From: a virus
IMG/VR virus record: IMGVR_UViG_3300010885_025346
Coordinates: 1-46,200 of that record
Strand: one strand, 5' to 3'
Length of the DNA stretch: 46,200 nucleotides
Below, piece by piece: positions 5,562 through 35,594 of this stretch. The notes below the pieces were generated by a model. That model was not told the DNA's origin, ran no database searches, and saw only the letters and a program-made list of their open reading frames with translations. The number at the start of each line of letters is the position of its first letter. Position 1 is the stretch's first letter. The position numbers and the translations under genes are program-made.

Positions 5562-6080
5562 TTAAAATAATTCAAGTTCCGGTTCTGTACTATTTAATGT
5601 GCATGAAGTACACAATGCTCCCGTTTTTACGGCAACCTTCCCCTTGCCCACCTTGCCGTGACCCCAAATACAGAAAGGCTCTTTGTGACCGGCTGCCCGT
5701 ACCTCAATTTCCAGATTGTCAATCTCTGCGGCGGTATTTGGATACCAAATCCTGATTCGATCAAGCTCACCCTTAGGGGCAAAGGCACCACAAAGACACT
5801 CGCCAGACATCCCTAACGCATCTGAAACTGAATTGAAAGGTACTGGATCGGATTTTTCGTCAGCAATTGCCCGATAAACAGCCATGTCTTCCTTAGTCCA
5901 CATGGCTAACGGACTGGCCCAGATTACGGAGCCGACCGATTCATGCAGGGGTATATTTACCCGCCGACGAGATTCTGCTCGCCGCCTACCGGCAATAAAC
6001 AAAACCCTCTCACGGCGAGGATGTTCTATCAGTTCATTGCGAACCTGATTCAAGCAACGCTCTTTCAACCTCTGATACAT
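5562..6080 (-). CDS. PAPS-reductase-like protein, C-terminal segment
   Basis: 172 codons that continue the phosphoadenosine phosphosulfate reductase-like protein started at 6565. It begins MYQRLKERCL, the block expected directly after the PGPAMHYK that ends the upstream segment, and carries the RRERVLFIAGRRRAESRRR block, SGECLCGAF and further Cys pairs (CIWG, CTSC). It is in a different frame from the 5' segment and is reached by crossing 47 nt. The ATG has no good ribosome site at proper distance (GAGGGG is about 18 nt away), so independent initiation is unlikely to be efficient. Either the ribosome bypasses the insert, or the gene is broken. Confidence 0.75.
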   Translation of the reverse strand: MYQRLKERCLNQVRNELIEHPRRERVLFIAGRRRAESRRRVNIPLHESVGSVIWASPLAMWTKEDMAVYRAIADEKSDPVPFNSVSDALGMSGECLCGAFAPKGELDRIRIWYPNTAAEIDNLEIEVRAAGHKEPFCIWGHGKVGKGKVAVKTGALCTSCTLNSTEPELELF

Positions 6081-6127
6081 CTTGTGAAGGTCGTTGCCCC
6101 TCGGCTTTTAGGCTAAGGGGCAACGAC
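6081..6127 (-). other. 47-nt intervening element with perfect 15-bp hairpin
   Basis: The insert separates codon AAG (6130-6128) from ATG (6080-6078). The arms 6087-6101 and 6116-6130 are perfect inverted repeats of 15 bp with a 14-nt loop; the arm at 6116-6130 also takes in that AAG codon. The pentamer ACAAG stands at both boundaries (6132-6128 and 6085-6081), like a target-site duplication or matched take-off and landing sites. The length is 2 modulo 3, and both frames meet a stop inside it: TAG at 6115-6113 for the upstream frame and a TAA for the downstream one. No U-tract follows, so it is not a normal terminator. Confidence 0.85.
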
Positions 6128-6565
6128 CTTGTAGTGCATCGCTGGCCCCGGAAATCCGCGATCAATAACCAATTCCCTGTAGGAAATTGGTGCTACACGT
6201 TCAATTAAATTGAGATTCCAATTTTTACAGGTATCCCTTACGAACTGCCGGGTTTCCTCAACACCAATTGTCGTGTTGGCATGAACTGCATGGTCAACTC
6301 GGCCCCTCATCATATGTGCCAAAACGGTTGAATCGTTGCCGCCGGAAAATAGAACACACCATGCGGCACGCATCCGGCCACCGCTTTCCTTCTCCCAGGC
6401 CATATCAACAATTTCGTTTGCCTGATCTACCAATTTCCCCACCCGATCAATTCGCTCAGATGGGTTTAATTCGGAAATCACCGAAGGTGGACAAACCTGT
6501 TTCAAATCAGGATTCAAAGGATCACCAGTAAAAAGCTGTTCATCATCGAACAGGAAATCGCTCAT
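6113..6565 (-). CDS. PAPS-reductase-like protein, N-terminal segment (PP-loop ATPase domain)
   Basis: 150 codons, of which 146 belong to the conserved protein. VLFSGGNDSTVLAHM (SGGNDS at about 74-79) is the PP-loop of adenine-nucleotide alpha-hydrolases such as CysH; HAVHANTTIGVEETRQFV and DRGFPGPAMHYK are the following family blocks. In related phage proteins the last block runs straight into M-Y-x-R-L-K-E-R, which here is found only after the 47-nt insert. The frame ends after four extra codons at TAG. The start ATG has a GGAAAAG ribosome site and overlaps the HNH gene by 23 nt. The biological substrate of phage PAPS-reductase-like proteins is not established. Confidence 0.85.
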   Translation of the reverse strand: MSDFLFDDEQLFTGDPLNPDLKQVCPPSVISELNPSERIDRVGKLVDQANEIVDMAWEKESGGRMRAAWCVLFSGGNDSTVLAHMMRGRVDHAVHANTTIGVEETRQFVRDTCKNWNLNLIERVAPISYRELVIDRGFPGPAMHYKVVAP

Positions 6566-6875
6566 AGTCAACTTTTCCTTGCGCTGTAAGTAAGGCCCAC
6601 TGAGAGAGCCGGTAATGGATGGCTGTTTGGGCGGGGTCAAGCCAGGGCCGCACATGGAATCCCTCGTCGCTGGCCGCGTCGGGATGGGATTCAATCCAGC
6701 CGTGGCATCCCCGCGTCCCGTCACCGCACACAGCGACTATGTTCTGGGGTTCCCACAAGCCCCCCTGGCCGCGTTTCTTGCGGTGGTGCATGGTGACCGC
6801 CGAACCGCTACAACAACGCTCACAGAGCGCGTCAGAGCGTTCTAGGACGATCCGGCGGCACGCCTTCTCATTCAC
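6543..6875 (-). CDS. HNH endonuclease-like protein
   Basis: 110 aa. A zinc knuckle C-x2-C (CERC) is followed by MHHRKKRGQGG, containing the catalytic-type His pair, then NIVAVCGDGTRGCHGWIESHP with the second Cys pair and the terminal H of the H-N-H motif. This is the arrangement of standalone phage HNH proteins of this size. Its position in the early region, away from the terminase, argues against a role in packaging. It may be a homing-type or a nicking nuclease. Confidence 0.85.
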   Translation of the reverse strand: MNEKACRRIVLERSDALCERCCSGSAVTMHHRKKRGQGGLWEPQNIVAVCGDGTRGCHGWIESHPDAASDEGFHVRPWLDPAQTAIHYRLSQWALLTAQGKVDYERFPVR

Positions 6876-16156: not shown

Positions 16157-16199
16157 GGCGCAGTGGGAAGTTTACTTTTTTCATTCTTCCCACTGCGCC
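16157..16199 (+). terminator. hairpin terminator after the Lsr2-like gene
   Basis: Perfect 14-bp arms 16157-16170 and 16186-16199 with a 15-nt T-rich loop, followed by CATTATTTCTG. The T-run is weak, so termination may be partial. Confidence 0.6.
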
Positions 16200-16811: not shown

Positions 16812-16868
16812 AAAAAAGAGGGCCAGGTTGCTCAACGCCGGGGGAATCAGCGGAGCAACCTGGCCCTC
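16812..16868 (-). terminator. late-operon terminator (bidirectional hairpin)
   Basis: Perfect 16-bp arms, 16818-16833 and 16853-16868, with a 19-nt loop. On the minus strand the stem is followed by six U (16817-16812), so it is a strong intrinsic terminator for the leftward late operon. It separates convergent gene blocks and keeps late transcription out of int and rep. Confidence 0.85.
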
Positions 16869-32700: not shown

Positions 32701-34667
32701 CCGCCAGCAATGGTGTTCCACAGAGCGGCACCCGTCATCGCCGCCTTGACAACCAGCCATGCCGTAGAAACCGCGCCAAGCCCAACCACCAAAGTTGTCG
32801 CAATCTCGCTGTGCTTATTCAGCCAGCCGAAAACATCCTTAAGGACATCGGCAAACTTCTTCATCGTCGGCATCAAATCGTCGCCAACCTGGGTTGCCAT
32901 AGCGGCGAATGATGACTTAGCTGAGTCGATCTTGTACTTGAGGGTATCGGTAACCTTGTCCCAGCCCTCAATGTTGCCATTCGCATCGGGCTTAGCGTTC
33001 AAGTTTTCCATGTAGGACTTGCGAGTTTCCTTAGCGGCTTCCTCGTTGCCGAACAACTGGGAACCCACCAAAAGGCTCTGAGTGGAGCCGGTCGCATCTG
33101 CCCACAATTGCAGCGTCGTGCGAAGCAAATCACCGTTCTTCTTCAGAACAGGGTTGAAGCCCTCCACGGTTTGGCGGGCCTTATCCCACTGCTTCAGCAA
33201 CGTGCCCTGCTGGCCCTCGGCCTCCATCAAGTGGAGGGCTTTCAGGCTGGGGATGGTGCCGTTGTCGATGGAATCGGCCATCTTCTTATGGGATTCATCA
33301 AGCTGGTTATACATTTCCAGCATGTCTTTAGAGGCTTGAGGGTTCATGTAGAGCGCATCCATCAGAACCTTGCCGTCTGGCCCCATATGATCCTGAATCG
33401 CCTGGTGAATCTGATCCAAAACACCCAAGTATCCAATTGCTGGATCGGAAAGTTGTTGCGCCAGCACCGACGAGTTAAGGCCAAGCTGCCCAAGAGTGGG
33501 TGCGGCCTTAGGGTTCTCGCCAAGCTTAGCTAGCTGAAGGACGGAGTTACGGATGTTCTGCGAAGCCTGATCGGCACTCGTACCGTTACGGGTCATCATC
33601 GCCAGCGCAGTCGTCACCTGGGCGATACCCACAGCGGCCCTGGCCGGGTCGCCGCCGGTCAGCATCTTGAACACCGGCTCCACGTTGTGCAGGGAACCCA
33701 TGAACTGATCCATCGGGGCTTTCGCCTGACCCAGTGCGATCTGCAACTGTGCGACCGCCTGGGGGGCTTCCTTACCGTGCAGGCCGAAGTCGGTGAGAGT
33801 GGTTGTCAAACCCTTCATTGTTTCGTCCAGCGGGGCGATCTCGACGCGGGCCAACTGCGCCCCCGACTTGAGGATCGCCAACTGATCGGCACCCTCTTTG
33901 AAGCCGCCCTTAGCCAAAATGAACGCGGCATCGGACAAGTCTTGGGCGGTGTAGCCGACATCGGCACCCAAGGTCAAAATGCCGTCGTGAAGAATCTTGA
34001 TGTCCTTAGCGGTTTCCTGCGTAGCCACCTGGATTCGGGTCTGCGACACCTCCATGTGCGAAGCCATTTTCGTGGCCTCGGCGGCGGCGACAAGGAAACC
34101 ACCCGTCGCCACCATCCCCATCACGTTGAAGGCACGGCCAGCGTTGCTGGCACTGATCGCCGTCGAAGCTAACGCTGCCGAATGAGCTTCAGCGGCCTTA
34201 GCCCCCAACAGGGAAGCTGCCGCAGCATCGCGGGCACGGGCAGTCTGGAACAGGGCCGCATCGCCCGCCGCATACGAAGCCCGCTCCTGCTGAATCAGCG
34301 CAGCAGTCAAACGGTTCGTTGACGCTGCCTTAGCGGTATCCGACGCGGTGCTACTCGCCTGGATTGCGTTATTGCGCTCCGTAGCGACCGTAACCTTGTC
34401 GATCATCAACTGCTTCTGCTGAAGCGCAATCTCCGTGGCGTGGATAGCTTTGGTTTCCCGAAGCGAAGATTCCTCAGTGATGTTCGCAGCCTTCCGCTGC
34501 GCCTCGGCGAGCAGAAGAATCTTAGCCTCGGCCTCTTTGCCGAAAGTCGATCCGATAGCCGCGCCAGAAGCCTGGAACATCGACGTGATCTTAGAGAGGA
34601 TCGCACCCAGTGCCGCCATGTCGAAGCGCGGCAAAACGTCGAGAAAAATACCTTTCTCAGCGGGCAT
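29778..34667 (-). CDS. tape measure protein with C39-like peptidase domain
   Basis: 1629 aa, the longest gene here; it fixes tail length. Residues 30-180 are coiled coil (Lys/Glu/Ala), residues about 195-560 the phage tail-tape domain (SHMEVSQTRIQVATQET...DLSDAAFILAKGGFKEGADQL), and residues about 640-790 several hydrophobic Ala/Val/Thr-rich helices. Around residue 1177, QQNGWDCGPTATQLVLNSRGI with a later QHYVNVNG and DPTNWG gives the Cys-His-Asp of a C39-like peptidase, probably to open the cell wall during DNA injection. The C-terminal 300 residues are Gly/Pro/Ala-rich. Overlaps the chaperone gene by 11 nt. Confidence 0.95.
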   Translation of the reverse strand: MPAEKGIFLDVLPRFDMAALGAILSKITSMFQASGAAIGSTFGKEAEAKILLLAEAQRKAANITEESSLRETKAIHATEIALQQKQLMIDKVTVATERNNAIQASSTASDTAKAASTNRLTAALIQQERASYAAGDAALFQTARARDAAAASLLGAKAAEAHSAALASTAISASNAGRAFNVMGMVATGGFLVAAAEATKMASHMEVSQTRIQVATQETAKDIKILHDGILTLGADVGYTAQDLSDAAFILAKGGFKEGADQLAILKSGAQLARVEIAPLDETMKGLTTTLTDFGLHGKEAPQAVAQLQIALGQAKAPMDQFMGSLHNVEPVFKMLTGGDPARAAVGIAQVTTALAMMTRNGTSADQASQNIRNSVLQLAKLGENPKAAPTLGQLGLNSSVLAQQLSDPAIGYLGVLDQIHQAIQDHMGPDGKVLMDALYMNPQASKDMLEMYNQLDESHKKMADSIDNGTIPSLKALHLMEAEGQQGTLLKQWDKARQTVEGFNPVLKKNGDLLRTTLQLWADATGSTQSLLVGSQLFGNEEAAKETRKSYMENLNAKPDANGNIEGWDKVTDTLKYKIDSAKSSFAAMATQVGDDLMPTMKKFADVLKDVFGWLNKHSEIATTLVVGLGAVSTAWLVVKAAMTGAALWNTIAGGIDMVIARFALMRAAAVTTQATIVATSVAEAAAVATVGTAAATTTTTVAAVGGAAAATTGAVATLGTTAAVTGGAVLGVVSGLALLGVAAYEAQKYLGDPKTRGNDANPDGYHDSEGVKWYQKLWNSILEWKGYDPVEFGSGAYRIPDDVPKMGRSGNGPHGKDGHGMAAPYPSSIIAGSAARQGMVDYHHPDSDVPDGTASNPIHIDLSGLKGSFDQLGSSFKSATDNIGYTFDPFKDALSKGFGLPAIAQLMTTFVANLALGNPYGQMHPELATPGSSAASVGGDASLNLADSAEAIANMSPAERKQREFTVKLQKALRTYSGNLRDHAAAIAKYGPGSAQALDSEDALLNSRDSIDQVLAAQADKSQAAIDKFENDKRLGVDISDPDKFDKDKAAADAATGQIAKDQATVNAIMGGAGSVDITSPSVTVNTPGGVAAPAAGTPSDWPKPGEHGFASGEPSGPAGWPTPGTHGFAGLEPTPRDGKGPGGAGVGVVTAAGGDGVSVLRFGSIAQAQQNGWDCGPTATQLVLNSRGINMSQDSLIAQENTTKNGTNFGDIAPTLNKNLPGANYQGKFGAATPDALMGNLGSSVKSGYGGILNINTSSTGGFAGTADNGKKFNIPSGIQHYVNVNGVDEKNKRLHITDPTNWGTDAKGKAGGYWITAQQAAALTQTRGYIFASPAGGKGPGGMGPGDTTPYPGTTGDSPYAPSATGTPFGTGTPGAGGIFAGPYGNNGPLQATPPSIAGVPLPGVGMAPAPVMPSPAGAAPSAAPGAAAAPVGPAPIAAVPNTGMQTQQSQAGSGSGGFSVGGGLIGAAEQGAALAANIMAPGAGQAISTGTQLANRAVGYAGQVAGIAVEGLLDTFMMHDAQGSGKGGWINKIAGGLAGAHASAPNSAGAAEPLKPEETATADEATDTAPTVNADDPINQQGDAVGGKGPGDGQPLVKIDTYNANNGDQSGGADLARQLMAVGG

Positions 34668-35064
34668 CGTCAGCCTTCTTTCCTAAGTCTTGCCCATGCA
34701 ACTGAGCGAGGATTCCTGTACGGATAGCCAGATTCTTAGCGGCCTCTTCCTCGTTGCCCTCCCGCTGAGCGGGGGACTCCAAGAGAGTCGCATCCATCTT
34801 TTGGCCCTGAAGAGCGGCCTGGTCAACGCGCAACAAACGCACCTCGTTAACCATTGCCGCCTGGACGTACTGATCGTCAGACCAGTCACCGTCACGCAGG
34901 GCGGTCTGAAACCTAGAGTCGGGCGGTAAAGCCTCGCACAGAACGAGCAGTCGGCGGCTAGACATCTTCCCCTGATGCCAGTCAAAAATGTCGATGCCTC
35001 GGAACGCCAAATCCGCTTCAATCTCTTCAGGGAAATGGCGAACCAAGGACACCGCCTCAACTAT
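34657..35064 (-). CDS. tail assembly chaperone, frameshift product (GT) second half
   Basis: Encoded in the -1 frame relative to the upstream chaperone; after the slip it reads IVEAVSLVRHFPEEIEADLAF... and continues 135 codons with no stop. There is no good independent start (only an internal GTG), as expected for a frameshift extension. The product is the longer chaperone that binds the tape measure protein and recruits the tube protein. It precedes the tape measure gene directly. Confidence 0.9.
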   Translation of the reverse strand: MVEAVSLVRHFPEEIEADLAFRGIDIFDWHQGKMSSRRLLVLCEALPPDSRFQTALRDGDWSDDQYVQAAMVNEVRLLRVDQAALQGQKMDATLLESPAQREGNEEEAAKNLAIRTGILAQLHGQDLGKKADDAR

Positions 35065-35522
35065 TTTGGGTCTTCCTCCTGGCGTTCCTTAACCTGCTCC
35101 ACCATCCACTCCCAGGCGAGAGTCACATCGGAGGAACGTCCACCCGCTTCAATGAAACGGGCATGTTCTTCCTCACCCATGATGGCGCGGGCCGAACGCA
35201 CCGACATCGGCTCAAGAATCACACCGTCAATCTGATGCGGCTCCTTAAGGCGGGTGATCGGCTCACCGACAGCACTCATCATCGGCTTACCGTCTTCATC
35301 CATGATGGTGTCGCGGTCTAAGCCCTCGCCGCGCTGAAAGGTTTCCACACGGGTCTGCGTCACATCGTCCAGTGCCAGCGGGTGCGGAATTTCAAACGAC
35401 TCCGAACCAACCTCAAGGACGAGACTAGCTACCTGCGACTTAGCCTCAAGGGCTTGCTCGCGGAACTCTTCAACTTTCCACTTACGTTGTGCGCGACGTT
35501 GGGCGCGATTTGCTGCTGCCAT
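35061..35522 (-). CDS. tail assembly chaperone (G)
   Basis: 153 aa, charged and helical (NRAQRRAQRKWKVEEFREQALEAKS, then SARAIMGEEEHARFIEAGGRSSDVTLAWEWMVEQVKERQEEDPK), placed between major tail and tape measure genes as in most siphoviruses. Its last codons hold the slippery heptamer. The short form is made by normal termination and the long form by -1 frameshifting. Confidence 0.92.
   Translation of the reverse strand: MAAANRAQRRAQRKWKVEEFREQALEAKSQVASLVLEVGSESFEIPHPLALDDVTQTRVETFQRGEGLDRDTIMDEDGKPMMSAVGEPITRLKEPHQIDGVILEPMSVRSARAIMGEEEHARFIEAGGRSSDVTLAWEWMVEQVKERQEEDPK
35064..35070 (-). promoter_or_regulatory. -1 programmed frameshift site CCCAAAA
   Basis: The minus strand reads GAC CCA AAA TAG in the 0 frame, so C-CCA-AAA fits X-XXY-YYZ exactly. 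A -1 slip gives CCC AAA ATA GTT GAG and opens the 34657-35064 frame. The stop sits directly after the site. Confidence 0.9.
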
Positions 35523-35553: not shown

Positions 35554-35594
35554 CAACAACCCCCGGCACGGGATCGCCATGCCGGGGGTTGTTG
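35554..35594 (-). terminator. hairpin between the major tail and chaperone genes
   Basis: Perfect 15-bp arms, 35554-35568 and 35580-35594, with an 11-nt loop. No U-tract follows on the minus strand (it leads into TCTCTCACAAC). Likely a partial terminator or mRNA-stabilising end that keeps major tail mRNA more abundant than chaperone and tape-measure mRNA. Confidence 0.7.

Follow-up and report, generated by a model that had tools for sequence, protein, structure and literature searches.

Known examples of translational bypass are few (PMC5009743), so a confirmed addition would revise which of their elements count as essential. In bacteriophage T4 gene 60, a 50-nt gap lies between matched GGA codons, the take-off codon is followed immediately by a stop, stem-loops are present at take-off and on the 5' side, a KKYK nascent-peptide signal is encoded approximately 30 residues back, and sliding there is efficient to approximately 56 nt (PMC5009743, PMC11194080). 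In mitochondria of Magnusiomyces capitatus, 12 of 15 genes are affected by byp inserts, 81 in all, and the A-site codon is an unused one; a bypass candidate in the terminase of Streptomyces phage Hau3 has a much shorter gap and a dependence on a UUA codon (PMC5009743).

The window, i.e. the whole 46.2-kb stretch of an IMG/VR virus record that was analysed, contains a PAPS-reductase-like gene which resembles T4 gene 60 and its mobA HNH cassette in several respects: a phage gene is split by approximately 50 non-coding nucleotides into halves that are out of frame, the codons at the edges are identical, a stem-loop takes in the upstream codon, and an HNH ORF lies nearby. Unlike in T4 gene 60, there is no stop right after the candidate take-off codon, no KKYK and no clearly distinctive 5' stem-loop, a 15-bp hairpin fills nearly the whole gap, the HNH ORF is upstream of the gene and unlinked to it in homologues, and the joined product is predicted from sequence. 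The locus shares with the byp elements a short, frame-breaking insert in an otherwise intact gene, but there is one copy, in a phage of bacteria, and the A-site codon is an ordinary sense codon. The Hau3 candidate is likewise a case of hopping proposed in an actinobacterial phage, although neither its shorter gap nor its UUA dependence is found here. Both halves place the gene in the family of phrog_424 PAPS-reductase-like proteins, yet all other examined members are uninterrupted at the site.

The explanation best able to account for these observations, with a probability of roughly 0.6, is that a 47-nt palindromic sequence with a 5-bp repeat at its edges was recently inserted, that it inactivates the gene and that deletion from one ACAAG to the other can probably revert it. 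The locus would then be a clean case in which a palindromic insertion has broken a phage cargo gene, perhaps revertibly. Were the ribosome instead to hop the insert, it would be a further well-defined long phage bypass, without several of the features thought necessary in T4 gene 60.

The phage and its PAPS-reductase-like gene

The record is a single contig and is judged by its gene content to be a temperate phage of actinobacteria, since it encodes an integrase, and its large terminase shares 73% identity with mycobacteriophage proteins. Both halves of the interrupted gene match phrog_424, Pfam PF01507 spans the join, and the SGGNDS nucleotide-binding motif and the conserved ECLCG and LCTSC cysteines are all present across the two halves. 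The G+C content of the gene (5562-6565) is approximately 49%, some 10 points below the approximately 60% of its neighbours, which suggests a recent acquisition. As phrog_424 is also filed under 'moron, auxiliary metabolic gene and host takeover', the gene is likely to be acquired cargo whose loss would be tolerated. Partial loss appears to be tolerated, because shortened relatives of the gene, annotated as hypothetical proteins, occur in Mycobacterium phages Krakatau (L009), which retains the C-terminal part, and PSullivan (L010)/Pita2, which retain the N-terminal part.

Decay elsewhere in the gene was looked for and is absent: there is no second frameshift or stop anywhere else, and no deviation was observed at the 57 columns found to be near-invariant against 66 other non-redundant homologues (0 of 24 before the insert and 0 of 33 after it). 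This intact remainder is what either a recent event or ongoing selection on the two halves would leave, and a single sequence cannot separate them.

A homing cassette similar to T4 mobA with gene 60 was considered for the neighbouring HNH ORF and rejected, with HNH found among the homologue loci only in L009 and L076 and never directly beside the gene.

The insert, its hairpin and the empty site in homologues

The original prediction had placed a gap of exactly 47 nt between AAG (6130-6128) and ATG (6080-6078), with the upstream product ending in HYK-VVAP-stop, and every coordinate was confirmed to the base (Table 1). The ACAAG at both boundaries and the perfect 15-bp hairpin, described as lying mostly within the gap, were likewise verified; as the hairpin takes in the gene's own AAG codon, 12 of the 15 left-arm bases are in the insert. 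The stops reported in both frames are a TAG in the upstream frame and a TAA in the downstream frame, and the third frame is open throughout. Translation of the upstream ORF past HYK would add VVAP and yield a product of 150 aa.

Table 1. Positions of features at and around the split site (window coordinates)
Feature	Position	Strand	Remarks
HNH endonuclease ORF	6543-6875	-	Directly upstream of the PAPS-reductase-like gene, overlapping its start
PAPS-reductase-like gene, N-terminal 146 codons (MSDFLF...PGPAMHYK)	6128-6565	-	Start ATG 6565
First ACAAG copy	6128-6132	-	Holds AAG 6130-6128, candidate take-off codon
Hairpin	6087-6130	-	Perfect 15-bp arms 6116-6130 and 6087-6101; 14-nt loop 6102-6115
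47-nt insert GTCGTTGCCCCTTAGCCTAAAAGCCGAGGGGCAACGACCTTCACAAG	6081-6127	-	Absent from every homologue examined
TAG closing the upstream frame	6113-6115	-	Four codons past AAG, at the hairpin loop
Second ACAAG copy	6081-6085	-	Holds AAG 6083-6081, candidate landing codon; adjoins ATG 6080
PAPS-reductase-like gene, C-terminal 172 codons (MYQRLKERC...ELF, stop)	5562-6080	-	Different frame; start ATG 6080

The hairpin at the split far exceeds chance expectation. As RNA, the 50 nt have a folding energy of -32.6 kcal/mol (z = -8.3), with none of 200 shuffles equally stable, and the DNA fold of the same hairpin is -18.5 (z = -6.7). In 1.4 Mb of both-strand sequence there are 855 comparable places, at each of which a broken pair of ORFs could be joined through a 5-nt repeat; the 15-bp stem here is the longest among them, the runner-up having 13. 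The inverted repeat reaches three bases into the target (AAG/CTT), which is expected by chance approximately once in 64 and is what a fold-back synthesis error would give, unlike a transposon end. An intrinsic transcription terminator was also considered and rejected: the stem is present but is followed by CACAAGATG on the gene strand and GTAGTGC on the opposite strand, with no T-run on either.

The expectation that in this family the PGPAMH block runs directly into M-Y-x-R-L-K-E-R was borne out. The sequence HYKMYQRLKER is gap-free in homologues L004-L008, so that the 47 nt are the exact excess over the family, and phage and IMG/VR homologues with 54-66% identity have the same block uninterrupted. 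Comparison with homologous phage genes, proposed in the original prediction, yielded no further carrier: none of the 92 loci with a match (the initial homologues together with the best 80 of a profile search, a few contigs being counted twice and two loci being partial genes) is broken at the insert site, the distant locus L108 having a stop somewhere within its aligned stretch. As a profile search that retains the best 80 loci might overlook split copies, a DNA-pattern search was added for GFPGP-(A/G)-x-H-(Y/F)-K followed by anything, and all 40 of the contigs recovered were seamless at the site (39 with the strict motif, the remaining one reading MYRQLKE). A host survey of 399 genomes, in the order of a Micromonospora locus, contained a single homologue, also uninterrupted, and a DnaB-based search of viral contigs for close relatives that might date the insertion found none. 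The insert is thus, by these sequence comparisons, a singleton in everything searched. With seamless homologues and no deviations at near-invariant sites, it is exact and apparently young.

Origin and expected consequences of the insert

Under the preferred reading of a recent insertion, 47 nt capable of forming a palindrome would have entered the cargo gene of an actinobacteriophage and left ACAAG at both edges, either as a 5-bp target duplication or as a microhomology junction, which are indistinguishable in appearance. The original prediction had listed a small palindromic insertion with a 5-bp duplication among its options, and this option is supported by the sharp boundaries of the insert, the ACAAG repeat and the empty sites in homologues. 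Because the insert alters the frame and introduces a stop, the expected product would be an N-terminal fragment in which VVAP follows 146 native residues, with loss of the enzyme; such a loss may be tolerable, as the family is classed as moron/auxiliary. Precise deletion by replication slippage classically acts on hairpins that have direct repeats on either side. Here the DNA hairpin would juxtapose the two ACAAG copies, such that the gene may be restored at some measurable rate and the insert may act as a revertible, phase-like mutation.

The collections searched yielded neither a donor nor a second copy of the insert. The hunt for other copies of the hairpin suggested by the original prediction found none in viral contigs, phage records or plasmid records, and neither the insert nor any stretch of at least 11 nt from its region recurs in the window. 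A relaxed search for both 11-nt arms across 257 Gb of prokaryote genomes matched 17 places, many of them at the 3' end of one Streptosporangiales gene family, in which these bases encode (D)YLVVAPRHLPKGQRL, and the others being scattered hairpins whose loops are mostly unrelated. An origin of the insert in the Streptosporangiales genes was rejected: in 22 comparisons, taking the better orientation, their loops resembled that in the window only weakly (best p 0.010, most p values 0.05-0.2), and the resemblance was treated as chance.

The Streptosporangiales matches have a feature of their own. At L015, L017, L018, L021, L022, L025, L026 and L028-L031, an exact 11-bp palindrome, GTCGTTGCCCC/GGGGCAACGAC, lies within the coding 3' end (LVVAPRHLPKGQRL) of a gene of Microbispora, Planotetraspora and relatives that reads like a putative VapC/PIN toxin, and the coding hairpin at these toxin-like gene ends is conserved and repeated in paralogues. 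Within the window, other strong hairpins (14-18 bp at 16157-16199, 16818-16868 and 35554-35594) are intergenic and unlike the insert in sequence, and are likely terminators.

Alternative explanations

Foremost among the alternatives, all of them unlikely, is a gene fission with termination-reinitiation, in which translation would end at TAG 6115-6113 and restart at ATG 6080, the parts of 150 aa and 172 aa forming a working two-chain enzyme. The distance from stop to start is short (approximately 33 nt), ATG 6080 is the ancestral Met codon, and split phage enzymes that reassemble are on record (Aeh1 NrdA, gp43A/B; PMC2988022). However, ATG 6080 is not preceded by a Shine-Dalgarno sequence at normal spacing, the nearest candidate, GAGGGG, being 16 nt off and inside the hairpin. 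The position of the break is also unfavourable. In a model built with AlphaFold2 for L035, a close homologue (mean pLDDT 90), the site falls within an alpha-helix at residues 140-162; among solved structures, the fold is nearest to CysH-type PAPS/APS reductases and then to FAD synthase and TtuA-type sulfurtransferases. A break within this long, modelled helix, in the core domain and not between domains, speaks against a simple two-chain enzyme and is in keeping with inactivation.

Next in order is an artefact of assembly or library preparation, with the 47 nt missing from the phage DNA or present in a minority of molecules. This is improbable, even with the insert occurring a single time and on a single IMG/VR contig, given that the large genes of the record are unbroken (a 551-aa terminase, a 1629-aa tail ORF and a DnaB-like helicase). 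As the left arm does not repeat adjoining sequence in inverted orientation and the window contains no recurrence of at least 11 nt from the insert region, a fold-back chimera of neighbouring DNA is ruled out. The insert is not known to match any sequencing adaptor.

Programmed bypass, the headline of the original prediction, is doubtful and follows third. Peptidyl-tRNA-Lys would leave AAG 6130-6128, slide 47 nt, re-pair at AAG 6083-6081 and resume at ATG 6080 to give a 318-aa enzyme. The matched AAG codons and the hairpin on which the proposal was built stand: the out-of-frame ORFs join seamlessly once the gap is omitted, the AAG pair sits in an identical 5-nt context (ACAAG), both halves are fully conserved, the gap is within reported processive sliding of up to 56 nt (PMC11194080), and the hairpin takes in the take-off codon as in T4 gene 60 (PMC5009743). 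An in-register 5-bp repeat with matched codons and a take-off hairpin is the expected look of a bypass element. Two expected features are nevertheless missing. The codon after AAG is the sense codon GTC, with the stop coming four codons later, and no KKYK-like signal occurs in the last 40 residues (QFVRDTCKNWNLNLIERVAPISYRELVIDRGFPGPAMHYK), although a different signal is possible. A candidate 5' stem-loop exists in a 10-bp hairpin 38-61 nt upstream of the site, but 70 insert-free homologues are just as stable over the upstream 80 nt. A singleton insert provides no conservation, and the ACAAG repeat is accounted for by the insertion itself. As an insertion duplicating 5 bp would alone supply the matched codons, the features favouring bypass reduce to the hairpin. 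A self-contained cassette, in which a 15-bp hairpin between matched AAG codons would suffice for full-length enzyme without an adjacent stop or a KKYK-type nascent peptide, is doubtful to the same degree.

It is very unlikely that the insert is one of a family of small palindromes (REP- or MITE-like) that move between genes with 5-bp target duplication. A palindrome with a 5-bp repeat at its edges has the appearance of such an element, but dispersed copies were not found in viral contigs, phages, plasmids or the rest of the window, and the genome arm matches consist of recurrent gene 3' ends and scattered hairpins. With loop similarity at chance or weakly above it, there is no sign of a mobile family, and an inverted repeat that includes three nucleotides of target differs from a clean transposon end. 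RNA removal, a further option in the original prediction, is unsupported, as no Rfam family reaches its gathering score at the site; the best score, RybB on the opposite strand (27 bits versus 40), is taken as a chance hairpin match.

A separate candidate for recoding was observed elsewhere in the window. On the minus strand at 34657-35522, a 153-aa ORF ends in GAC CCA AAA TAG, with a CCCAAAA heptamer just before the stop, and is followed in the -1 frame by an ORF at 34657-35052. Programmed -1 frameshifting in tailed phages usually has this arrangement, and the ORFs are a probable pair of tail-assembly chaperones.
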